Source: Nitzschia sp. pyKryTriq1
Taxonomy: Eukaryota; Bacillariophyta; Bacillariophyceae; Bacillariales; Bacillariaceae
DNA: 64,000 bases
Direction: 5' to 3'
Assembly: GCA_956465555.1 (NCBI GenBank)
Contig: OY101129.1
Location: forward strand, 806,001 to 870,000
Shown: piece by piece, positions 8,215 to 41,140 of the stretch
Layout: the number at the start of each line of letters is the position of its first letter
Position numbering within the stretch: position 1 is the stretch's first letter
Made by a program: the position numbers and the translations under genes
Notes under the pieces: model-generated
What the model saw: the letters and a program-made list of their open reading frames with translations, nothing else
Database searches by the model: none
Told to the model about the DNA's origin: nothing

Positions 8215-8938
8215 GGCAGGCCAAAATCATGCTGGTACAAAAATCTCGTAGGGTCTACGGACACATGCCCAGAATCTGGTGAGCGCGTGCGTGGTCGGTG
8301 GCCCCGAATGATCCAGCGGACTACGAGACTAACTGACCAGCTAGAAAAAGCCTTAGGCCTACTGTTACGATACGAGATACGAGCGAGCGCCGGTATCATA
8401 CCAGTACAGTGCGCAGCGGTACTTGTATTCTCCATTCTCATGCATCAGCAGTAGTGCTTGTAGACTTTAGGTGCGTTATTGAATTTAGTATTATTGCCCT
8501 TCAATTCCTGCGTTCGTCTTCGCATCTCATCGTGCAATCAATCGTACCGGAAAACTGTGGTCTCACAGTACCAGCAGTTGCAGAATAATTACAAGAACTT
8601 CTCGTGCCATGCATGACGGCGAGACAACTTCCCGCGCGCCTGAAAAAAACACCTCTCGACTTTTACTAATAATTCTCTGCATCGCATGCGAATACAGGTA
8701 CGGTACCGTACCAACAGTCGGTACCAGTACCGGATGGAATACACGTATGGCATACCTTGTACTGTAATATACGAGTACCTTGATTCCGTGAAAACTCCTT
8801 TAAAAACTCAACTCAATTCAATTCAATTCAATTCACTGTCAACGCCTTATTATTGTCGATGGTCGACGAGACAGCATTCAGTAAAAACTGTAAGGCAGAA
8901 GTCAAAAAGTATACATAGCCCAACAAAGCATCTTCACA
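8215..8938. other. Divergent intergenic region (NTAN1-like / LGRG-box gene 1)
   Basis: Contains several TACCGGTAC/GTACCGGTAC-type palindromes near 8697-8780 and an AATTC pentanucleotide microsatellite at about 8812-8835. Presumably holds both promoters. No gene seen. Confidence 0.5.
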
Positions 8939-10597
8939 ATGCTGGGCGGCAACGACGATCACCATAACGATAACCCCCCTGGTGCAAGCCATCCGGGGCA
9001 AGGCGGTAGCGGCGACAAAAAGGCGCAACAACAAAGCGGCGACTATTCTGAATTGAACGAAAAGAGACTACATAATTCACCCGTGGGGGACCATGATGAG
9101 GAGGGTCTATTACAAAAACCCTCTTCAGCTACCAAACCGTTAAATGAGCAGACCCGAGAACTCACTGGTAGTGGCGCCGCGAAGGAAAAGGCCAACGGAG
9201 CCGGCGCCTCCGGACCTTCGCCGTCGCATAGGACAAAAGCCTCGGCCGCGCTGAGACCCCACAGAAACGATGTGATTCTCGGTAGAGGGAAACCATATCA
9301 AAGCTTCCCAGGCAACCAGCGAATGCTTCAGATAGTGGCAGGCTACAAAAACGAGTTCTTTTCGCGGTCTCGCGAGACAAAGAAGAAGTTTGTAGACACG
9401 GTGCTAGATGCTGTGCTGGAAGATGGCACTAGGTTTCTGCGACGAATCGAAGAGCAAGATGGAACCGAACGATGGGAAGAAGTTACACGGGCCGTATCAG
9501 CGGAAAAGGTATGGCATGCTTTACGGTGCAAAAGTCGAAGTAGCGAGAAGACCGCAAAGCGGAAACGGAGCCCGATGGAGGAGGCATTCACAAACTCAGC
9601 ACTAGAACAACAGCGGAAGAACAACAACGAGCAGGAGACACCGCTCTCCACCATTTCTATCCCCACGAGCAGTTTATTGACAACAAGCACAACCACCGCC
9701 ACCTCAGCACGAGGTCACCAAGATTCAAATATCCGTCTTCCTCCAAACTCCTCCTTGGCCTGGCAGCCGGCGAGCGAAGGAGGACGAGCTCCTCCTCCTG
9801 CAGGCGGGGCCGCGATGACAGCAGCGTTTCCAGGGATGTTGGCATCAACAGCTCCTCCTACTTTGGCAAATTTGCTACGGCTGCAACTGCCAAATGCGGC
9901 ATTGGCGAGCATATTAGCGGCGAACGGCATGGGTATTGCTGGTGTACCCGGAAGAGCTTTTCCGGTCGGTGGTGGTGCTGTACTACTACTACCGGGGGGT
10001 TTCCCGTCAGCACTGGCGACAGCATCTCAGCAGCAACAACAAGAGGCACGATTCTTATCTAATCTAGTGGCATCGGGAGTCTTGCCGTGGGGGCAGACAA
10101 ATCCTGGCATGCTACTTCATTCCTCTTCGCTACTTCCTCCTCCTCTAACTGGCTCCGCCACCAGCAGCCTTCTTCACATGGGCCGCAGAGCTGGTCAGGA
10201 GCCAGCACCAGCAGCTTTCCAGTCAGCACCATTTTCATTTTTCCCAAGCCCTGCAGCCTTGGCATCCCTTGCTCTTCAGTTGCCGGCTACCGCTGTCACC
10301 GCTGCCTCCACTAGTAGTAGCAGTGGTGCCGGCGTCGTAGAACCTCCCTCCTCATCTTGGACGAGGACCGCATCATCCACCACCACCACTTCATCGGTGG
10401 TGCACCAGCCCTCCTACTATGCGACCTTGCCGCTGAGTATGGTCCAACAACAACAATCCTCGCTCCAGCCAAATCAAAATGAACTGGTGCTTCAACTACT
10501 GAACAGTCTTGCCAACAACAACAACCGATCCTCTTCGAGCACGCAAGAACAAGATGAAATGGCTCCTCGACCTCCTCCTGGTGCGTCTTCTTCGTGA
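8939..10597 (+). CDS. LGRG-box (DUF6824-like) protein, paralog 1
   Basis: 552 aa, single exon, ATG preceded by CACA. Residues ~108-198 carry the conserved box found in all three cluster members: DVILGRGKPYQSFPGN, QIVAGYKNEF, KKKFVDTVLDAVL, GTRFLRR and AAEKVWHALRCK-like AEKVWHALRCKSR. This matches a domain I know from many diatom proteins (DUF6824); it is basic and aromatic and may bind nucleic acid, but its function is not established. The box is flanked by a hydrophilic N-terminal arm, a KRKRSP basic stretch (candidate nuclear signal, residues ~208-215) and a long Ser/Ala/Gln/Pro-rich low-complexity tail (~220-552) like a transcription-factor activation region. It is the most diverged of the three paralogs. 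Confidence 0.8.
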   Translation: MLGGNDDHHNDNPPGASHPGQGGSGDKKAQQQSGDYSELNEKRLHNSPVGDHDEEGLLQKPSSATKPLNEQTRELTGSGAAKEKANGAGASGPSPSHRTKASAALRPHRNDVILGRGKPYQSFPGNQRMLQIVAGYKNEFFSRSRETKKKFVDTVLDAVLEDGTRFLRRIEEQDGTERWEEVTRAVSAEKVWHALRCKSRSSEKTAKRKRSPMEEAFTNSALEQQRKNNNEQETPLSTISIPTSSLLTTSTTTATSARGHQDSNIRLPPNSSLAWQPASEGGRAPPPAGGAAMTAAFPGMLASTAPPTLANLLRLQLPNAALASILAANGMGIAGVPGRAFPVGGGAVLLLPGGFPSALATASQQQQQEARFLSNLVASGVLPWGQTNPGMLLHSSSLLPPPLTGSATSSLLHMGRRAGQEPAPAAFQSAPFSFFPSPAALASLALQLPATAVTAASTSSSSGAGVVEPPSSSWTRTASSTTTTSSVVHQPSYYATLPLSMVQQQQSSLQPNQNELVLQLLNSLANNNNRSSSSTQEQDEMAPRPPPGASSS

Positions 10598-11929: not shown

Positions 11930-12376
11930 GTCCGACTACCTTTAGACTAAATGGACTAAAATGGATTGATTCTACGCAACCTGCGCTCTCTAGAATCATC
12001 ATCCTGAATATCTTCCTTCCGTGACTAATGAGTACATACCGGTGTCAATCATGTACTTGTTTCAGTACGGGACTGCTCTGCATGCGTAGCCTACGCTATA
12101 CGTGTACCGGTACAGTATGAATGGAAAGGAGCGAATAAAGTGCATTTTATTAGAATGGCAGTACTTGTAGGGAAGCAAGGTATCATACAGTACGTATCGC
12201 ATGCACCATGGTAAGAGAAAAACTCGTTCTCATTCTACAAGGACACTACTACTAGCTAGAGTATAGAGTAGAGTTCCGCGGCAAACCAGCATAACCGAGC
12301 CTCATTTTGGTTGAATCGAGTGCGGTGTGTTTGCTTGGTATAGTACTTTTTGACGAATTCACTAGCCGAAGCAACA
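11930..12376. other. Divergent intergenic region
   Basis: Promoter space for the hypothetical gene (-) and LGRG-box gene 2 (+). Contains ACCGGT palindromes near 12047 and 12105. No gene seen. Confidence 0.4.
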
Positions 12377-13753
12377 ATGGAATCCTCCCTTTCTGATGAC
12401 GATGCCTCGTCGAGCGGCGAGGGGGGGGAGGAAACCCAGGCTGACACAGCTGGGGATAGTCAAACTAGAATATCATCCCATGCTGCAACAGACTCAGAGC
12501 GCGCAGCAGGGGACGGAGATAACAACACCTTTGGACCAGGACAACAGTTGGGTGAAGGCCCGAGAAGTCGTGATGTTCTTCTCGGACGAGGGAGACCGTA
12601 TCAAAGCTTTTCCGGTAACAAGCGAATGCTCCGAATAGTTTCGCAATACAAGGAGGAATATATTGCTCGCCCTCGGGACCAGAAGCGCGCATTTGTGGAA
12701 ACAGTTCTTGATGTTGTGCTCAAAGATGGTACGAAATTTTTGCATCGGGTCGAGGACGAGAGCAACGGGTCTTTTCATTGGGAAGAGGTTGACCGGTTGG
12801 CGGCTGCTGAAAAGGTGTGGCACGCTTTGCGATGTAAAGACAGACCGAAACAAAGACGAGCCAAGCGCAAGGCAGATGATGCCGAGGAGGCTCGATCACC
12901 ACTACCTGCCACTGGTACTATCACGAATCATGAGCAAACACAGTCTCTTCCGAATACACACTTCGCTGGTAATAACAACATAGCCAATGCCGGGGATTCT
13001 AACAGCACGATATCATCGCAGACAATGCACATGCTGCAATTGGCTACTACAGCTAATACTATGACAAATGCGCAAGCACTGGTGAGGGATATCCAATTGT
13101 ATTTGTCAAATGCGACTGCTGCAGCCAACTTGTTGGCCTCCGTTGTCACTGCTCTACCAACAACCGGCAGGCGGATGGGAAATCATGCCGTCCCCTCTTC
13201 ATCCGCACCGATATCTGCGCAACAGTATGCCCAACCAATGGTGGGTAATCACGCTCTGCCGACCCAGCTGTCTATCGACACTGTCACAGCAGGTCTTCTT
13301 AGCTACGATTTTCTTCGTGGTGGCGCTCAGGGTGCATCCTCGGCTCTACAAGAGCAGGGTGCCCAACAACCATTTCCTTCTACTAGCTACACCACGAACA
13401 TGGCGGGACTTGCATCTCCTCCCTTTGCAAATCCTGCTGGTCATCTTCCGGGACCTGCTGTAGATCTGAGTGGAGCTCCTTTGGCTTCAATACAGGCCCA
13501 GCAACAAAACAACCCGCCAAACAACCAGCAGCACCCTACTCAGCAACCATCTCATCCAACGAGTCCCCCCCCCCAACCAGCAGGTTCTCGCCCAAGCGCT
13601 CAATTTTTTGATGCAGGCTGCTCAGCAAGGAGGGGCTTCTTCGTCGCTTCATTGACGACTCACATGCAGCAGAGTAATGTACTCAGCATTGTGGCTTTTT
13701 CGCGGACAACAGCGAGGGGCAAGACGGTAGCAACATTTCTCTCTTGCTACTAG
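12377..13753 (+). pseudogene. LGRG-box (DUF6824-like) protein, paralog 2, C-terminus frameshifted at a C10 tract
   Basis: The ATG at 12377 (MESSLSDDDASSSGE) aligns with the start of paralog 3 (MDSSLSGDDTSFSGD). The LGRG box spans residues ~66-154 (DVLLGRGRPYQSFSGN, YKEEYIARPRDQKRAF, AAAEKVWHALRCKDRP). After a Gln/Pro/Ser-rich tail the frame meets ten C (13565-13574). The frame as given runs to 13753 with an unrelated end, while the +2 frame after the tract gives QVLAQALNFLMQAAQQGG and stops at 13655, matching QVLAQAVSILMQAAQQG at the end of paralog 3. A one-base length difference in the tract therefore explains the change. It could be a sequencing error, a polymorphism or a real late frameshift; the conserved box is intact, so the gene may still work. 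Confidence 0.75.
13565..13574 (+). repeat. C10 homopolymer at the frame change
   Basis: Ten consecutive C inside paralog 2. Nine C would keep the frame of the conserved C-terminus. Confidence 0.9.
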
Positions 13754-16844: not shown

Positions 16845-16864
16845 GATAACAGTCAAGCGCTGGA

Positions 16865-18013
16865 ATGGACTCCTCCCTGTCTGGCGACGATACTTCTTTC
16901 AGCGGCGATGAGGAAATCCGGGCTACGATGCCTGGGATCAGCCAGAGCAAAGCAACAACCAGTGTAGGCCCGGTGCGTGTGGCTGACGGGTATAGCACTT
17001 CTGGTGCGGGTAACGGAAACACCGCGTCTGGTATTACAGGTGACGGAAATAACACATCTAGAAAAGGTCAACAGTCGAGTGAAAGCCCGCGAGGTATTGA
17101 TGTTCTTCTCGGACGAGGGAGACCGTACCAAAACTATTCCGGTAACAAGCGAATGCTCCGAATAGTTTCGCAATACAAGGAGGAATATATTGCTCGCCCT
17201 CGGGACCAGAAGCGCGCATTTGTGGAAACAGTTCTCGACGCGGTCATTAAAGACGGTACGAAATTTCTGCGGCGGGTCGAGGTGATCAACGGGTCCAACT
17301 ATTGGGAAGAGGTTGACCGGTTGGCGGCTGCTGAAAAGGTGTGGCACGCTTTGCGATGTAAGGACAGGCCGACACAACGACGGGATAAGCGACAGGCAGG
17401 TGATGGTGAGGGGGCTCCGGCCCTACCTGCGGCCGGTGTAGCGAATCATGGAGAAACACAATGCACGGGCAACTCAGCCATGGGGGGAAATGCACTTAAT
17501 ACTTTCGGAATGCTGTCTACAATACCGGGTGTTGATACGCTTTTGGTGGATATTCAAGTACATTTGGCCAAGGCAGTCACCGCATCCAACTTGTTAGCAT
17601 CTATGCTCGTCGCGCCGTCTGCCGGGATTGGAAATCACTTCGTGCCCCCTAAGCTTGTACCGAAACCTGCACAACAGTATGCCCAACCAAAAATGGGTAA
17701 TCATTTGCCGACCCAGCCGTCAGCTGGCACGGCCACAGCTCTGCTTGGCCACCATGACTCGTTTTGTGGTCAGAGCGCACCCTTGGCTGTACAACAGCGA
17801 GCCCAACAATATTTTCCGTTGAACTACACGAACACACCGGGGCTTGCAAATCATGGTCTTCCTGGAGTTGTAGATTTCAGCAGATCGCCTTTTGCTTCAA
17901 TGCACCAGCACGGTCAGCCGCCCCAGTCGAGGGATCCTCGCAATCAGGTTCTCGCTCAAGCGGTCAGCATTCTGATGCAAGCTGCTCAACAAGGAACATT
18001 GTCTCCTCCCTAA
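16865..18013 (+). CDS. LGRG-box (DUF6824-like) protein, paralog 3
   Basis: 382 aa, single exon. The box covers residues ~78-167: DVLLGRGRPYQNYSGN, LRIVSQYKEEYIARPRD, KRAFVETVLDAVI and AAAEKVWHALRCKDRP. A short basic stretch follows (RDKRQ), then a Gln/Ala/Pro/Asn-rich tail with the terminal motif QVLAQAVSILMQAAQQG, a predicted amphipathic helix shared with paralog 2. Two blocks of the box are identical at DNA level to paralog 2 (99 bp at 17137-17235 and 61 bp at 17301-17361), while the rest differs at synonymous and non-synonymous sites. Function of the domain is unknown; a nuclear regulator is an inference from composition. Confidence 0.82.
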   Translation: MDSSLSGDDTSFSGDEEIRATMPGISQSKATTSVGPVRVADGYSTSGAGNGNTASGITGDGNNTSRKGQQSSESPRGIDVLLGRGRPYQNYSGNKRMLRIVSQYKEEYIARPRDQKRAFVETVLDAVIKDGTKFLRRVEVINGSNYWEEVDRLAAAEKVWHALRCKDRPTQRRDKRQAGDGEGAPALPAAGVANHGETQCTGNSAMGGNALNTFGMLSTIPGVDTLLVDIQVHLAKAVTASNLLASMLVAPSAGIGNHFVPPKLVPKPAQQYAQPKMGNHLPTQPSAGTATALLGHHDSFCGQSAPLAVQQRAQQYFPLNYTNTPGLANHGLPGVVDFSRSPFASMHQHGQPPQSRDPRNQVLAQAVSILMQAAQQGTLSPP

Positions 18014-19137: not shown

Positions 19138-22100
19138 TTAGACTGGCACGGAGCCAACGTTTTCAGTCTGCAAGTTGCTCCTACGTCTTCCAACTTTGCC
19201 CTCTTTCACTCTGCGCCTGATTTCTTCGAATCTTTCTTCCTTGAACAGCTCGTGACACCTCTGTTCTTCATGGATTTGCTTCTCGAGAGACTCCAACTGT
19301 CTTTGAATTTGATCGGCGGTGCTATATTTTCTCGTTTTGGTCGCCTTGTCTAATTGCATCTGCAGTGTGCAAACTTCCATCGTGAGTTGTTCAATCGTCT
19401 TCAAATACTGTCGAAGTCCCTGCAGTTCCTCAATCGAATCTCTGATGTCACGGGCTCGCATAAAGTGTCTCTTCCGTAAGGCAGCGGCCTCTTCTGCTAA
19501 CTTCCTCTTGATCTGATCCTCCAATGCTACCCTCGTTTCTACTTGGGGACATGGACGTTTTGAAATGCGGACTAAATCCAGCAATTCCGTCTCGGACATT
19601 TGCGCCGCTGCCTGCTCAATTTCTGATGGCAGGCCACGACCAATTTTCTCGAATATCACTGTATTCCGTTTTGATGGGTACCGTCCTTCCTTTGACGATC
19701 TTCTTGGCGCAAGGGTTTTCGCTAAGTCCGGGCCGGGGAAGCGTTCAGAGTGGACCAGTCTCGAAAAGAGGATAGCCGAAGACTCGTGATTCAGCGGACC
19801 CACCTCGATGACACGTGAGGACAACTTGACCTTTAAGGCTCTATTTCCAATAAGAATTATCTTCGCAGGCAGCGCCTGTAAAAGATTTCCGAGAAAAAAT
19901 TCTAGATTTTTGACTGCCTGTTGTGACCCAAAACACCGAACATCGAAAACTAAAAGCACCCGCTTTCCATCAAGGGCTTCAAACAGATGTACGATGACAT
20001 CTCTGTAGGCAGGCCGCTCCAAGATTGATATTTTCCCGTCCGCAATCAAAGACGTACAGTAGTTCAGTAATTTTGCGGTTTCGTCGCCGTCGCCTTTGAC
20101 AGCATTGGGTAACCACACCGCACCATCCATCATAAACGATGTGGTGCGTTGAAGGATGTACTTGGACACAGCTGCAACAAGAGTCGACTTTCCAGTGCCT
20201 AGTCCGCCGATCACTTGCACCAGATCAGCGCTTCGTAGTGCCTCTAGGATTCGGTACATATCAGCTTCGCGACCAAGAAAGTTGATTGGCACGCGTTTCA
20301 ATATTCGTGGCTCGTAGGTGTGTCGGACAACGTCCTCCGATCGAGTACGGTGGTCTGCGAATGAAATTACAACATCGTGGTATGAATCGTCGTCGCATTT
20401 TGGTAAGAGAAGGAATTTATCGGATTCGATCCGAGCATTGGTGACAAGAGGGGACAAGCTACATAACGACACGAGTGAGACAATTTTTGCAATCACAACA
20501 AGAAATCGGACGATCCAATCCAGCAATGGGTGACTTACCGCACCGACTCTTTAGCCATCATGAACGCTTGTTTCAAAGTCTTTTTACATGCCAATGCGCG
20601 ATAGAAACATCTTGCAAACTCAGCACAAGCTTCGTCCCTAAATGCTGAATCCTGTTTCGCGCAAACAACGTGTCTCACGCCGGCCTCAAGGAATGCTTCA
20701 CCAGCCGGGAGGGAATGACAGGCCGAAACGAATACAAGATCGAGGCTGGTGCCTCCAGCTTCAATAAATCCCTTCAAATCCTCCACAAACAATGGCTGCA
20801 TGTCTCCGAAGCCATTCTCCAAAGCAAGCCACTTCGGATGGCCATGACATGACAAATGCAGAAGCCTCCGTCCACCTTGGGCGAAGAACGCACTTAGTCG
20901 ATCAGTTGTCGCGATCTCGTGTTCAATTTCAATGAGAGTCCCCATTGTTTCTGCATCCTTTAGTGCTTGTTTAAGAACGCGTGATTCGTATTCGAAGTCC
21001 AAAATTGGAAAAAGGTGACGTCCATTGGTATTACGATCAAAGTATGATAGTGGTGCTGCTTGAAAGAGTGTCAGACGGTAAGTCGGATCGGAGTACGGGG
21101 GCGCCCTCAGCGTAGAAGCCTTGAGCTCGTATCTCGCATTTTGATCCGAATATGTTTCCTCTCCTTCTCGTTCCAGCTCTCTTTCGAGAAAATTCTGTTT
21201 GGTCTGCCTTTCGTCATCAAATGAAGTTCTCTGGCTTCCCGTCAAATCACGGAGTACAATATCTAATTCGGTAATTCTCTGTTGAAGTTCTTGCGTCGTG
21301 GGCATTGAATCACGAAGTGCGACAAGCTTCACCAGCCGTCTTTTCTGGCGGCTTCTTTCGAAAGTACTACGATCGTCTACCGCGGACAAAAACAATTTAC
21401 ATTTCTCGATCTCTTTTTCCAGATCGTATCGAGTTGATTGCGTGTTGGACTTTCGAATTGGCTTTTTCCAGTCAGTTTCTTGGGAGCTATCGAGGGAAAC
21501 CTCAATACCTAATTCCGTCGCTTCGAACATCGAAGAGCATTCTTCACTGGTTGCAGCTATCGCTAATGAATTCCCTCTTGTAATGGGCCAAGCGACTGTT
21601 TCAAAGCCAACTTGCTCACTTCCACTTGCATTCAGGCACACAACATCTTCGTCGGATCCTTCCAAAAGCCGCTGATGTTGGCTGGGAGAGGCCAAATCTA
21701 GAGCCTCAACTGCATTGCGAAAGCTGGCAGAACGGACCAAACCAGTGGAGATGGATGTCGCAACGTTTATGTTGAGACTCGGGAGTGGCAATAATGAAGC
21801 AAGGCTCAAAGTTCCTTCTTCCGGCACATGCTGAGACTCGTCGCTGTCAACGGAACTATCCTCCACATCATCACCAGCCTCAGAGAGAGCAGACCCAATG
21901 GTTGAATCGTCAGTCTCAAATTTTCTTTCTAGAGACTGAGCATCTTCCGATTCTTCTTTCAGAATAGAAGCAGGCCTTGCCGATTCGCAGCCATTGATAT
22001 CGGCGCAAAATGTAGTATCAGATTTTGAGGAATCGGAGTTGCTCTTCTTGGAACGCATTTGTGAGAGTGAATCAATAGATATGGGGACGCCAAACGTCGC

Positions 22101-22613
22101 GCCCATGTTCAAACTGAAAACTTGGGGATTCTGACCGTGTGCTTCTTCCTCATCAGAATACAAAGATCCCGAGGTATTGGAGATGGTGGACGATGACATC
22201 ATGTCTGAGATTTTGCCGCTTCCTGGCCTTGATTTGGTTTTGAATGGAGAGGATGGATGTGAAGGAATCTGAGAGCTGTCCGAGCTTCTACAGCTGAGGG
22301 GCGGTCGACTTGCAGTAGCAACTTGGTCGGTTGCTGACATTCTCCTTGACGGCTTCTCTCCTAGCGTCGTCTTGGCGTCGTCCAACGAGTAGCACGTAGG
22401 TTGGATGCAATAACCTTTGTAGACCAGATATGTGCCACTTGCCTCGTCCTCTACCGTGATTGGTTGCCAACGGCCTCGTAGTTTCTTCAGAAACCGCCCA
22501 GCCTTGCGATGCGTCTGCGTCTGACCACACAGTCGGCACAACCCTCGTGCTCGAGCGTATTCATCCAGCTGCTTCCCCGGGGCCATGGCGATTCCATTGG
22601 CGATAATGTTCAT
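19138..22613 (-). CDS. CHAT protease / NB-ARC STAND ATPase / UVR-like coiled-coil protein (2 exons)
   Basis: Exons 22613-20539 and 20458-19138 (intron 20459-20538, 80 nt, GTAAGT...TGTAG) give 1131 aa; a later ATG at 22586 is an alternative start. Order of parts: Cys-rich N-terminus with CRLCG (Cys26/29) and YCIQPTC (Cys69/74), a probable zinc knuckle; long acidic Ser-rich linker; coiled-coil region (~400-480); CHAT caspase-like domain (~500-690) with the dyad His590 (SCHGH) and Cys632 (SACHS); NB-ARC-type ATPase with FLGREADM, P-loop GGLGTGKST (776-784), Walker B RVLLVFD (~858-864), ILIGNRALKV sensor strand and GLPSEIEQAA (GxP-like); then a charged helical tail with two UVR-like units (RARDIRDSIEEL). 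CHAT domains are proteases known from gasdermin- and caspase-like bacterial defence; NB-ARC proteins are ATP-driven switches. A ligand-gated protease for defence or cell death is inferred. No LRR or WD sensor is present. Confidence 0.82.
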
Positions 22614-23381: not shown

Positions 23382-24375
23382 TTAAGCATGCTCCTCACTC
23401 GACGACGCGTCGTCCTTTGTGGCAAAGGCGTACCGATCCAAAATGAAATTTTCAATGTCATCCACTGCTGTTCCATGCCGAACCGACGCAAATACGGTCG
23501 GTCCAATCATACCTGGGTCGGTCGGAGAAGATCGCATTCGGTCGGCATCCCGACGCATCACGCCAAGATCAGCCCCTACAGCCTCCGCCAAATCGATCTT
23601 ATTGATGATCAATAGATCTGATTGAGTAATCCCGGGACCACCTTTTCGCGGAACTTTATCTCCCCCCGCCACGTCGATGACATATAAGGTCAGATCCGCC
23701 AGTTCCCTAGAAAAGTTGGCCGCCAAGTTGTCTCCACCCGATTCACACAAGATCATTGCGGCTGCGGCGTCACCGCTCTCATTATTTTTAGATTTCATCG
23801 TCAGCACCCGAGTCAAGTCTTCACAGGCCGTCAAGTTGGCGCTCACGTCTTCCCGAATGGCAGCATGGGGACATCCTCCCGTTTCGACCGCCCGAATCAA
23901 TTCTGCCGGCAAAGCTTCATTTCTGGTCAAGAATTGGGCATCTTCTTGTGTAAAAATGTCGTTTGTCACGACACCGACTGAAACAAGAAGAAAAGACATT
24001 GCGATAGTGATGGTGAGCATCGTGAGCACGCATGTACGCACAGTCCACTACAAGTGCAAGGCCCTGGTGCTTCCTTCGTTTCGACTTACGCGGTACTTTT
24101 TCCGCCAGGCGTTTGGTCAACGCCAACACCAAGGCCGTCTTGCCAGAGCCCACCGGACCACCTATGCCCACGGTGAATCCTCGTTGTTTCCAATCGTGTC
24201 GATGATATGTAGTGTCTGAATTATTATTATTTCCAACCCCATGAAAATGCCCTGGACTGGCATAGGAATAGTGCGATCGCGTGCTGAGGATCGTCGACGC
24301 TGCTGCGCAAGGGCGGGAGGATCGAGGAGACAGCTTGGAAGCTGAGGAGACAGTGAAGTGGGTCCATTTCATCAT
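23382..24375 (-). CDS. ureG: Urease accessory GTPase UreG (2 exons)
   Basis: Exons 24375-24090 and 23977-23382 (intron 23978-24089, 112 nt, GTAAGT...TTTCAG) give 293 aa; splicing joins RLAEKVP to [17 protein letters not shown] exactly as in UreG. The start is the first of two adjacent ATGs at 24375; upstream in-frame codons look like leader. Motifs: P-loop [13 protein letters not shown], the nickel-binding [35 protein letters not shown] and guanine-specificity NKID. UreG hydrolyses GTP while delivering nickel to apo-urease with UreF and UreD. The N-terminal ~70 residues are extra: Ser-rich, then His/Asn-rich ([16 protein letters not shown]), reminiscent of the metal-binding arm of plant UreG. 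The urease gene itself lies at 38253-41140. Confidence 0.93.
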
Positions 24376-25602
24376 GATTGTAGAGCACAGGTACTCCGAC
24401 TTCTGTTGGGAATGCCAGAAAGAGTAAGGGTAAGAGTGACGCGATGGTATGAACGTCTGGATCTTTGTAATACCAACGTCGATTGAAGGAAGAAACAAGG
24501 AAGAAAAGGACGAGACGATGATGCGCAGGAGGTACGGAGTACGAAGAGATGGAGAAGAAGAAAAAGATGCGCAAGATCCTACTTGTACCGGTACCTGGTT
24601 CACGTACATACAGTAATAACACAAACCTGCTGGCTCATTTTCTCAATTATTATTTATGCGCTTACCCGCCCGCCTGATGATGAAAGCGTGCTTGCTCGGT
24701 CAGAACGAGCGACGGCCGGCGTTCGCCTTGATTCCATGCATGATTTATGCCAAACCAGCAGGGTATCTGTTGCGCGAGGAGATAAACACGAGTACCGGTA
24801 GTAATTTTAGATAGGCTGCTTGCGCCATAAAAGTATTATTTACGGCAACATACAGTAGTGTAGTTTCTCCGACGCGCGTCATGTAGTAGGGTAGTAGTAC
24901 CTCCTCGAGGAGTGCATAATGCTGTATTGGTGGGTACAGTACTGGTACCATCCTCTCTGAGGAAGTCCATCCACTTTGAGGTGCTGGTAGTTGGCGCCAT
25001 TGATAAAAATCGTTTTTAAAATTCTGCTGCTAGTAACTCTAGAGTAACTCGAAGAGGAGGATCATGTTTTCGTCGTCTCGATGAGATTTCAAATCTCATC
25101 GAAGTTGTGCGATCTCATCATCGTCGGATTGGTTTTGTTGTGTTCGTGTGCACAAACAATCACAAAAAATGCACAAACTCACCTCAAACTTCCAACTACT
25201 GTATTATATTTACAACACTCATTGGTTGTGACTGAGCTCTCATCTGCTTCAGAGGCTCCAGATGTGTCAACAACACCTGGCACTTGCTGGGCACTAGAGG
25301 AATTTTCGTTTTCCATTGCAGCTACTGCTGCAGAAGGAATTGAACAGCCAAACTTGGACAATGAATCAACAAGAGGTGGAGGTCGATGTTGATGCAGTTG
25401 AATGGTCGAGAAAGACCATGTGGAGCCCAAGAAAGAGGCACGAGAGTGAGTCTAAGAGATAGATTGATATGACCTGCCGTGACTGGCGACGAGCGAGCGA
25501 GCGATGCGACGGACGGACTCTACTAAAATTCGCGCGCGATGTGCGCGGGAGATGAGGAGATGACGCGGGAACGATCGTGGTAACGGGGCAGACAGACGTA
25601 GT
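24376..25602. other. Intergenic region left of the TIR element
   Basis: Includes the UreG leader, ACCGGTA palindromes near 24590 and 24793, and a 25-bp perfect inverted repeat at 25078-25102. Short open frames at 25081-25430 on both strands lack recognisable domains and are not called. Confidence 0.4.
25078..25102. repeat. 25-bp perfect inverted repeat
   Basis: TCGATGAGATTT - C - AAATCTCATCGA: two 12-bp arms around a single base. Confidence 0.9.
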
Positions 25603-25632
25603 GGATTAATCCGACTACATCCAAATCCATGG

Positions 25633-25814
25633 AACAAACCCTCAACTCTCTCGGACACTGTAGACCGATGGTATAGTACTGTTAGTGAAATAATTCGTTG
25701 GCCTATGCCCCTGATCGATTCCGATTTGCGTAGCAGGATCGTCCTCTCTCGGGGATACCCTTGGGTACATCTCCTTGCCTCGTCCTTGTCAAGGTGTGAA
25801 GGGATGGCGGGCGG
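25633..25814. repeat. Direct repeat A, copy 1
   Basis: Identical to 25990-26171 as far as read by eye. Confidence 0.9.
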
Positions 25815-25816
25815 GT

Positions 25817-25977
25817 TTTTAAAGCTAATTAATCTAGAATTCCGAAGTTGGGATTTGCGATACCGAGGTTGACTCGATGATCTTATGAGGTTCATCGGTC
25901 GTCTCTCTTGGTATCGGTTTCGGGTTTGGGTGTTCGTTCGACTTCTTGTCTGTCCTTCGTTCGTTGGGGGTGGCCAT
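25817..25977. repeat. Direct repeat B, copy 1
   Basis: Identical to 26730-26890. Here B directly abuts A (short derivative). Confidence 0.9.
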
Positions 25978-25989
25978 GGCGCAGGCGCC

Positions 25990-26171
25990 AACAAACCCTC
26001 AACTCTCTCGGACACTGTAGACCGATGGTATAGTACTGTTAGTGAAATAATTCGTTGGCCTATGCCCCTGATCGATTCCGATTTGCGTAGCAGGATCGTC
26101 CTCTCTCGGGGATACCCTTGGGTACATCTCCTTGCCTCGTCCTTGTCAAGGTGTGAAGGGATGGCGGGCGG
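25990..26171. repeat. Direct repeat A, copy 2
   Basis: Matches 25633-25814; here A and B (copy 2) are separated by 558 bp of unique sequence. Confidence 0.9.
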
Positions 26172-26729
26172 CCATTGAACTAGAAATCCAGCCTCATCTC
26201 GTCGCCTTGGTTGTTCGCGTCGGTTCCTGAAAGGTCGACCATGTCCTCAGCGAGGTTGCTTGTGAGTTCGATGATCTGGGGTCTGATGTACGCCATGAAT
26301 GCGTTGGATCTCCACCGCCCCAAAATCATGATCTTCATTTCTGAGTAGTTCCGTTGGCTAAGTGCTAGGTGGTGCGGTTCGATGTGTTATTTGAGGTGCT
26401 GTTTGGTGTGGTGTTGCTGGAGCGGTTCGATGTGCAGTTTGAGGTGCAGTTTGAGGTGCAGGTTGTGGTGCATTTGGGGGTGTGGTGGTCGACGGTGAAG
26501 TCGGTGCAGTTGGTATGGTGGGCGACGGTGAAGTCGGTGCATTTGGTCGTCGCGCATTTATCTGGTCAGCTTCATCGTTTCGGTTGTTGTGTTGTTCGTC
26601 GGTTCGAGATTGTCGAGTGGCCCTTCCGATTTCGCCTTCGCCCATGATCCTTCCTGTTGGATCCGCTCCTGGAGGAAATCCTTCCACTTCGGGTTACTAG
26701 GTTGCGCCATTGAATGGTTTGAAAGTTGC

Positions 26730-38252: not shown

Positions 38253-41140
38253 CTAGAACAAAAAGTATTTCTGAGCCAACGGAATCTTGCTCACAGGATC
38301 GCACAAAAGAACCTCGCCATTCGCTTTCACTTGGAATGTTTCCGGATCGACTTCCATCTCGGGAGTCGCATCATTGAGAACCATATCCTTCTTGGTCAAG
38401 TTGCGGCATCCGTTGACACCTTCCACTTGCTTGTTAAGCCCAAAGTTATCCCTGATGCCGTTGTTGACCGCGGCCTTGGAAACAAAGGCGAAGCTGTGAC
38501 CATTCTTGCTCGTGGCTCCAAACATTGGACGCATCTTGACTGGTTGCGGGGTCGGGATACTTGCGTTGGGGTCTCCCATTTGACTCCAGGCAATCGTTCC
38601 TCCCTTGATGATCATTTCTGGCTTGGAGCCAAAGTATCCTGGTTTCCACAAGACCAAATCAGCCAACTTGCCCTTTTCGACACTGCCAATCATGTGGGCC
38701 ATACCGTGAGCAATGGCAGGGTTGATGGTGTACTTGGCCAAGTAGCGCTTCACGCGGAAATTATCATCATCCTTATCCGGACCGAGGGCTCCTCGTTGAA
38801 GCTTCATCTTGTCGGCAGTCTGCCAGGTTCTGCAAATAACTTCCCCGACGCGTCCCATGGCTTGCGAGTCACTGGAAATCATACTTATTGCGCCCATATC
38901 GTGCAAAATGTCTTCGGCTGAAATGGTTTCCGCTCGGATTCGAGATTCGGCAAATGCCACATCCTCGGGAATGGAACTATCCAAGTGGTGGCACACCATC
39001 AACATATCCAAGTGTTCGTCCATTGTATTCACGGTATACGGACGTGTCGGATTTGTCGAACTGGGCAACACGTAGGGTTCCTGGACGATTTTTATTATAT
39101 CAGGAGCGTGGCCTCCTCCAGCTCCCTCGGTATGATAAGTGTGGATGGTACGGCCCTTCATGGCAGCGATACTGTCGTCGACAAAGCCAGACTCATTCAA
39201 GGTATCCGTGTGAATCTAATATCGACACCGAGTAGAATTAAAGACAAAAGGGTGACAGGTAAGTCATCAGCATGCACATACATCCCAAGGCAAAGAAGCC
39301 AATCCTTTCCTATACGCACCGTCACTGCTACATCGTTCTGTTCCGCAAAGTCCAAGCACGCATCAATAGCGCTCGGGGTGGTCCCCCAATCTTCGTGCAA
39401 CTTGAAACCACAGGCTCCCGCCAAGAGGCAGTCTTGAAGTACGCTGGCATCACTGGTGTTACCCTTTCCAGAGAAACCAAAATTGAGAGGCAAATGATCC
39501 GTGGCTTGGAGCATCATTTCGAAATGGGCCGGGGACGGTGTGCAAGTCGTGGCCGAAGTTCCAGCGGAGGGGCCTGTGCCGCCACCAAACATCGTGGTCA
39601 CACCACTGGCAATCGCATCCTCAATCTGTTGAGGGCTAAGAGTAAGCATGGGCAAGTTGTGAGATGCTTTTACATCGTGAGCTCCACGCACCACAGATTT
39701 CGTGTGCTCGGGTATGTCTTACCAAATCCAGTGAACATGCGTATCGATACCACCGGCAGTCAAAATCAACTTTTCACCAGCAATCACATCTGTGGTAGCC
39801 CCAACAATCATGTTTGGATCCACGCCCTTCATCATGTCTGGATTTCCAGCCTTTCCAATACCAACGATACGGTTCCCCTTGATACCAATGTCGGCCTTGA
39901 GGATACCCGTGACCGAATCCACAATGAGTGCATTGGTAATGACCGTATCCAGCGCATCTGCCGAGTGGATACCCGTGGCCTGCGAAAACCACAACAACAA
40001 AACGGCAAGAAACGGCACCGGCATGTATAATGTAAGAAATTCGACATATTCCAGTCCACAGAAAAGCAATTACTAGCCACAGCAACGGTAATGATAACGC
40101 AACATTGCACGTACCTGACCCATTCCTTCTCGCAAGGATTTACCTCCTCCAAATTTACATTCGTCGCCGTATTCGGTCAAATCATATTCGACTCGAATCT
40201 TGAGATTGGTGTCTCCCAACACCACACAATCTCCTGTTGTGGGACCGTACATATCGGCATAGGAGCTGCGTTCAATGACAAAGGCAGTTCCCTCGGGAAC
40301 CTCTGCTGCGGTAGCATGCTTGAAGTTTCCAGCAGCAACCCGGGCCATGATCTCATCCACACGATCTTCACTGGCAATACCATCGGTCAGTCGGTTGCCC
40401 GTGACGACACGTTTCTTGCCTCCAATTTCCACCAAGGTGACTGTCTTGGTCTCACCCGGTTCAAATCGAACCGAAGCCCCACTCGGAACATTGAGACGTT
40501 TGCCAATGGCGACCTTGCGGTCGAATTCCAAGGCCTTGTTGGTTTCCACAAAGGCGTAGTGCGATCCGACTTGGACGGGCCGATCTCCCGTGTTGGTGAC
40601 GCTCATTTCCACCAACGGTGCCCCTGCATTCAGAGTGATCGGCTTGCCTTCCTCGACGATTACTTGTCCCGGATAAAAGTCCTCGTCTTCCATCTCGACA
40701 AACTTATCGAGGGGCGGACTGGGCAAGAAGGATCCTTCCAGGGCCAGATCCATGTCACCGTCCAAGGCAGAAATGGGAGAGTGGACAGTGAGAAGCTTGG
40801 TGCCGTCGGGAAAAGTCGCTTCGACTTGGACGTCTTTAACTAGCTTAGCTACTCCCGGAAGAACTTGGCGTCGGCCTAGCAAAGTCTGCCCCATGCTCAT
40901 GAGAGTAGCGACATCGTTGTCTCCGTCGCGAATCTTTTCCATCATTTGCATGGTAATCAAGGCCACCGATTCCGGCACGTTGAGCCGTAAGCCTCGCGCT
41001 AGACGATACTGAGCGAGACGCCCCACATTGTGCAACTGCAAGTGATCGATCTCGCGAGGAGACAAGTGCAGTTTTCGACGAAAGACAGAAGACGTTACTG
41101 GCGTTGTTGCCAATCGTCGAAAGAGGGATGACTGGAACAT
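38253..41140 (-). CDS. URE: Urease (4 exons)
   Basis: Exons 41140-40115, 39979-39723, 39635-39320 and 39215-38253 give 853 aa, the length of single-chain eukaryotic ureases in which bacterial gamma, beta and alpha subunits are fused. Introns are 135, 87 and 104 nt; each restores a conserved stretch ([54 protein letters not shown]). Active-site motifs are complete: nickel ligands in DTHVHWI and [12 protein letters not shown], the carbamylated Lys in GFKLHEDWG, flap Cys/His in MVCHHLD, and Asp in [12 protein letters not shown]. It hydrolyses urea to ammonia and carbamate in the cytosol. The first ~20 residues ([19 protein letters not shown]) are extra and resemble a mitochondrial presequence, though catalytic context normally predicts cytosol. 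Needs UreG (23382-24375) for nickel insertion. Confidence 0.96.

Follow-up and report, generated by a model that had tools for sequence, protein, structure and literature searches.

The locus and its spliced product

On the minus strand at 19138..22613 of the window (that is, of the whole stretch of DNA analysed, 64,000 nucleotides long and corresponding to C15:806001-870000 in a genome of 40.65 Mb and 20 contigs) lies a gene, here called the target, that yields a chain of 1131 amino acids once an 80-nt intron is removed. The genome is of diatom origin: PF03842, the silicon transporter family, has eight scored matches in it, all of them above the cut-off. A Cys-rich module, a linker, a CHAT domain, a STAND-like NTPase and a helical tail succeed one another along the chain (Table 1).

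Table 1. Features of the target gene, in window coordinates
Feature	Position	Strand	Residues and remarks
Exon 1	20539..22613	-	codons 1-691 plus 2 nt: Cys module, linker, CHAT domain
N-terminal Cys4 module	22353..22577	-	about 13-87; CxxC ... VYKGYCxxxxC ... LGE
Linker	21459..22346	-	about 90-385; Ser-rich, acidic (by composition)
CHAT cysteine-protease-like domain	20539..21068	-	516-693; last two coded across/after the intron
Predicted catalytic His590	20844..20846	-	in SCHGH
Predicted catalytic Cys632	20718..20720	-	in SACH
Intron	20459..20538	-	80 nt, GTAAGT...ATGTAG
Exon 2	19138..20458	-	CHAT end, STAND-like NTPase, helical tail, stop
FLGRE motif (STAND-type hhGRE)	20263..20277	-	753-757
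Walker A / P-loop GGLGTGKST	20182..20208	-	776-784
Walker B LVFD	19942..19953	-	861-864
GLP (GxP motif)	19627..19635	-	967-969
Helical tail	19189..19539	-	about 999-1115; two UVR-like units (alignment A5)

Without splicing, the reading frame hits a stop inside the donor. Candidate introns were ranked by the similarity of their products to five paralogues, each of which is a single open frame across the junction (that is, intronless there); the scan took in donors up to 150 nt before and 60 nt after the proposed one, and acceptors up to 200 nt past its own. Among the 23 GT..AG pairs whose removal gives an uninterrupted frame, the proposed intron comes first, with a score of 1618 vs 1549 for the next. 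Because this splice scores highest and the five paralogues run uninterrupted across the junction, the 1131-aa protein is well supported: the sequence evidence that two frames are spliced into one chain, as a preliminary description of this DNA had proposed, is strong. That description was also exact as to coordinates, strand, intron and protein length; the gene is confirmed as real, and its main features had been read correctly.

The Cys4 module is common to five genes of the genome: the target, three clustered paralogues on contig C5 (described below) and an armadillo-repeat protein without CHAT (L028:1241-5551, plus strand). The armadillo repeats of the latter replace CHAT, and the Cys module therefore appears to be a shuffled module of this genome. 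It has no Pfam match and no convincing match in the PDB (best E 0.077). The linker that follows it has no Pfam match at E <= 1.

Seven neighbouring open frames of the window were scanned and none has the look of a defence gene in particular: one lacks any match, and the others cover a DUF6824 protein, a UreG-like protein, parts of urease and amidohydrolase, a protein with LRRs and one of armadillo/HEAT-like type. The UreG-like accessory gene (cobW/UreG family; 23385-24047, minus strand) lies about 14 kb from the frame with urease gamma, beta and alpha plus amidohydrolase parts (38256-41140, minus strand). Three plus-strand open frames (8894-10597, 12344-13753 and 16850-18013) have the motif DV(L/I)LGRG(R/K)PYQ in common; the one that was scanned matches DUF6824 at 62.8 bits, and the trio resembles a set of local duplicates. 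A minus-strand frame at 25452-26246, in which one segment of over 50 residues occurs twice, may be a repeat and not a gene.

The CHAT domain and its family

In a Pfam search of the single protein, the CHAT domain scores 35.8 bits against a cut-off of 24 for PF12770 (E 7.8e-9), and a profile of six CHAT family members picks up the solved SAVED-CHAT protease 8tl0 (E 4.1e-11) over the same residues. His590 and Cys632, already named in the preliminary description and here the predicted catalytic pair, are both present; in alignments they fall opposite the His-Gly and Ala-Cys of 8tl0 and agree with C3 and C12 (two paralogues to be described presently). Neither separase (C50) nor caspase (C14) has a Pfam row for the target at E <= 1. 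Two single-sequence AlphaFold2 runs, which used the window sequence only, were of low confidence (mean pLDDT 40.1 and 41.2) and too poor for a fold search. A cysteine-protease-like CHAT domain with an intact His/Cys pair, ahead of a STAND-like NTPase in the same diatom protein, is supported.

The target is one of six CHAT-STAND genes of this genome, the others being C5a (1467 aa), C5b (1488 aa), C5c (1550 aa), C3 (1390 aa) and C12 (981 aa; paralogue lengths counted from the first Met). Searched with a part of C12, a part of C3 or the part of the target that exon 2 encodes, the genome returns the same six each time; the exon 2 query also matched the tail repeats of a CBS-domain protein twice. 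C5a, C5b and C5c are clustered within 18 kb on contig C5, on mixed strands. Four of the six pass the PF12770 cut-off; C5a scores 23.0, and C12, which has no row at E <= 0.1, is assigned to the CHAT family by its homology to C3 and the target. (C12, at L030:1564-4506 on the minus strand, ends in a hydrophobic, Trp-rich stretch that, by eye, could be a membrane tail anchor.)

The preliminary description had the helical tail standing in the place of LRRs. The target does lack them (Pfam has no LRR, TPR, WD or ANK row for it at E <= 1), but LRRs above the cut-off are found in C5a, C5b, C5c and C3, where they precede CHAT, in the position that the linker occupies in the target. Those of C5b are of the ribonuclease-inhibitor type (MOP84A first at 7.3e-25, ribonuclease inhibitor at 1.5e-22, NLRP5 at 5.5e-18), a type widespread among proteins that are not related to each other. 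At the C-terminal end of the C5 genes is a Macro-like domain: for C5c the score is 21.2 of the required 22 with the whole protein and 25.1 with the tail alone, the tail of C5b scores 18.0, and that of C5a has no row. A joint profile of the C5 tails matches GDAP2 (E 0.0002) and MACROD2 (0.00065) over about 48 profile positions. Macro-type NCBIfam rows for C5c (E 0.00015) are far below cut-off. In the genome, the domain is found in the three C5 genes and, weakly (E 0.0045), in one further place.

Not all members keep the catalytic pair. In the order target, C5a, C5b, C5c, C3, C12, the His590 column reads H, N, H, Y, H, H and the Cys632 column C, R, V, F, C, C: both residues are kept in the target, C3 and C12, the Cys is lost in every C5 copy, and the His in two of the six. 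Even so, the broken C5 domains keep 37-46% identity with that of the target. In a CHAT tree, in which no branch is starred and the bacterial outgroup row is very long, the C5 copies form one group (90/94) that stands beside the target (90/98). The simplest reading of the alignment and tree would be an active ancestor followed by loss of the active site in the C5 group.

The NTPase and the helical tail

The target's GRE, P-loop, Walker B and GxP motifs come in STAND order (hhGRE, Walker A, Walker B and GxP being the set that we take to define a STAND protein). The F, G, R and E of FLGRE are invariant in all six family members, and the P-loop lysine is kept in five (C3 has Arg); the second Walker B acid is absent throughout, and C12 has Asn in place of Asp. 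Assignment to a particular STAND subfamily is another matter. The domain had been called an NB-ARC ATPase. Its P-loop, Walker B and GLP are there as claimed, but in an HMM search the NB-ARC score is 17.2 of the 23.5 bits required (E 0.0032, profile positions 2-107 of 248), and AAA_16 (E 0.00021) and nSTAND1 (E 0.00091), themselves below cut-off, both outscore it. None of the six members reaches the NB-ARC cut-off (14.3 in C5a and 14.9 in C5c; no row at E <= 0.1 for C5b, C3 and C12). The nSTAND1 cut-off is passed by C3 only (28.4 of 27.1), and the relatives show sub-cut-off rows for NACHT, NB-ARC and nSTAND1. Run against the PDB, the STAND profile mainly picks up generic P-loop proteins, the best NLR being ADR2 at E 0.23. 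Between the GLP and the tail repeats (from about residue 998) lie only about 28 residues, a stretch that, judged by spacing, seems too short to hold the winged helix (ARC2) of NB-ARC with its MHD motif. The case for NB-ARC is weakened accordingly, and the label is over-specific for this STAND-like P-loop domain. Searches with NCBIfam and PADLOC gave the target no useful label: over its CHAT-STAND part PADLOC has only mad8 (E 0.0047, over the P-loop part), and nothing for C3 and C12.

The genome also holds three NB-ARC-TPR genes (L018, L019 and L021) that are separate from the CHAT family. They resemble the target in having a STAND switch and differ from it in their TPRs and in NB-ARC scores above cut-off (58.4, 52.9 and 26.8 bits); the scanned parts of their open frames give no CHAT row at E <= 0.01.

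The tail had been described as charged, helical and UVR-like. Helices do appear in a poor single-sequence AlphaFold2 run, which is confident only at about residues 1033-1102, but the UVR identity is suggestive only. Pfam UVR (PF02151) gives no row at E <= 10 for the tail of the target or for the three C5 tails; none of the five UVR matches in the genome falls inside the CHAT-STAND family; and the result of the tail profile A5 is mixed, with an M protein first (0.00023), then the ClpC middle region (0.0066) and UvrB (0.53). The two tail units recur in a CBS-domain protein of the same genome (L031:2-4402, minus strand), in which helical repeats resembling those of the target accompany 10 CBS stretches (334.3 bits).

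Known counterparts and what the gene may do

In a tblastn search with the target's CHAT-STAND part, 5 of 72,556 plasmid records match, four of them over CHAT alone; the corresponding part of C3 has no match in the same plasmids. The best match, a Haliscomenobacter hydrossis protein (WP_013769048.1, plasmid pHALHY02), has CHAT followed by a STAND NTPase, which is the order of the target. It is colinear with the target over query positions 39-360 of 426 (E 2e-8, 24.5% identity in the collection search), and when the two are aligned directly they share 24% identity over 343 columns, with the His and Cys matched up. By Pfam it has CHAT (26.2 bits), NB-ARC (46.7 bits) and TPRs; it differs from the target in that its NB-ARC is above cut-off and its TPRs are C-terminal, and in that the Cys module and the helical UVR-like tail are not seen. 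At least 80% of its CHAT-NB-ARC part is found in only 2 of the 72,556 plasmid records, both from Haliscomenobacter hydrossis.

Eukaryotic counterparts are known from descriptions. Excerpts of the reviews PMC10197012 and PMC12881547 describe fungal NLRs with CHAT or another protease as N-terminal module: like the target, these are eukaryotic and join a CHAT effector to an NLR switch; unlike it, they carry WD40, TPR or ANK repeats and are often clustered with gasdermin genes (the likeness is one of description only). In Aspergillus, incompatibility is reported to involve a gene whose product has a predicted CHAT domain. A gasdermin as neighbour or substrate of the target was considered and rejected: PF04598 has no match in the genome at E <= 0.1, although a diverged or intron-split copy could escape. 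Metazoan TPR-CHAT proteins (TTC28; coral expansions; PMC12314368) likewise place CHAT in eukaryotes but have TPRs, and the excerpt of that paper mentions no STAND domain in the same protein. In 8tl0, the protease of type III CRISPR, CHAT is homologous to the target's down to the His and Cys positions and keeps different company: a SAVED sensor domain, as the excerpt of PMC11417357 has it, vs the STAND NTPase here.

With the Haliscomenobacter protein and the fungal CHAT NLRs at hand, the order CHAT-then-NTPase is already known, and the preliminary claim of an uncharacterised architecture has to be narrowed accordingly. The target and its family stand apart by the Cys module, the helical tail, relatives with LRRs before CHAT and with Macro-like domains, and a branch of dead proteases. 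No title or abstract start found in the open PMC literature names a diatom CHAT-STAND protein. Pattern scans of viral_contigs (21 stretches with A2, 3 with A6 and 143 with A3) and of genome_contigs (51 stretches with A1) yielded no confirmed relative; the patterns were built from this one genome, so that the result is weak evidence that relatives are absent from those collections.

We propose, with a probability of about one half, that the product of the target is a CHAT cysteine protease gated by its STAND domain. Self-assembly would be under the control of nucleotide binding and of the helical tail; it would bring CHAT domains together and, as in NLR- and STAND-gated effectors, switch on the cleavage of a cellular substrate; the output might be regulated cell death, defence or stress signalling. 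Counted in favour are: 1) the CHAT score and catalytic pair, and the profile match to 8tl0; 2) the order of the STAND motifs, the nSTAND1 score of C3, the P-loop lysine of five members and the same domain order in a bacterium; 3) the family pattern of three intact and three broken pairs. Counted against are: 1) NB-ARC, nSTAND1 and AAA_16 scores that all stay below cut-off in the target, and a STAND profile that leads mostly to generic P-loop proteins; 2) the missing second Walker B acid and repeat sensor in the target, and the apparent lack of room for a winged helix; 3) the lack of a gasdermin match, a PADLOC result limited to mad8, the lack of a clear defence neighbourhood, and low pLDDT.

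HetF is the CHAT protein that gives the domain part of its name. The main rival takes its cue from there: the target would be a regulatory protease of cell division or differentiation, HetF- or separase-like, with the NTPase in control of assembly and no part in defence. Cyanobacterial HetF is reported as a divisome component (excerpt of PMC8406250), human TTC28 is said to act in cytokinesis (excerpt of PMC12314368), the seven scanned neighbours offer no defence context, and a family of six is no large expansion. We nevertheless hold this role to be rather unlikely: sensing is the better match for a STAND fusion, for relatives with LRR and Macro-like modules and for a gene cluster, and the target has neither a separase nor a caspase row.

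The proposal of a STAND-gated protease can be extended to the family. The three clustered LRR-Macro relatives without the Cys may serve as sensors, scaffolds or brakes, leaving execution to the intact members. In its fullest form this becomes a diatom NLR-like network, in which clustered LRR-pseudoCHAT-STAND-Macro proteins sense danger or ADP-ribose signals and control intact CHAT-STAND executioners such as the target, the division of labour having come about through active-site loss; we regard this scheme as doubtful.

The broken pairs can also be turned to the opposite use. If CHAT were a structural or interaction module family-wide and the NTPase a scaffold, the intact pair of three members would be a remnant, and the absence of the Cys from three members and of the His from two, with the remaining domain kept, is what one might then see. 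Yet the target has the pair and groups with the broken C5 copies, not with the intact C3 and C12; retention of the pair in separate lineages suggests selection for activity, and we regard a non-proteolytic CHAT as improbable. A diverged AAA-like ATPase with a chaperone-like role, for which AAA_16 as best sub-cut-off NTPase model and the tail's weak match to ClpC may be cited, is very improbable in view of the FLGRE and GxP motifs, the nSTAND1 score of C3, the NACHT, NB-ARC and nSTAND1 rows of the relatives, and a bacterial homologue over CHAT plus NTPase that scores as NB-ARC.

The ways in which unicellular algae detect viruses and set off their own death are poorly understood, and metacaspases have so far been the main suspects. 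The pairing of a CHAT protease with an NLR-type switch is already known from bacteria and fungi, and the family described here brings that theme to a diatom. On our reading the target's product would be a cysteine protease under STAND control, and its LRR relatives of pseudoprotease type may be its partners. A CHAT-STAND family with LRR and Macro-like relatives, half of its six active sites dead, supplies concrete candidates for knock-out and makes the hypothesis of sensors and executioners a testable one.
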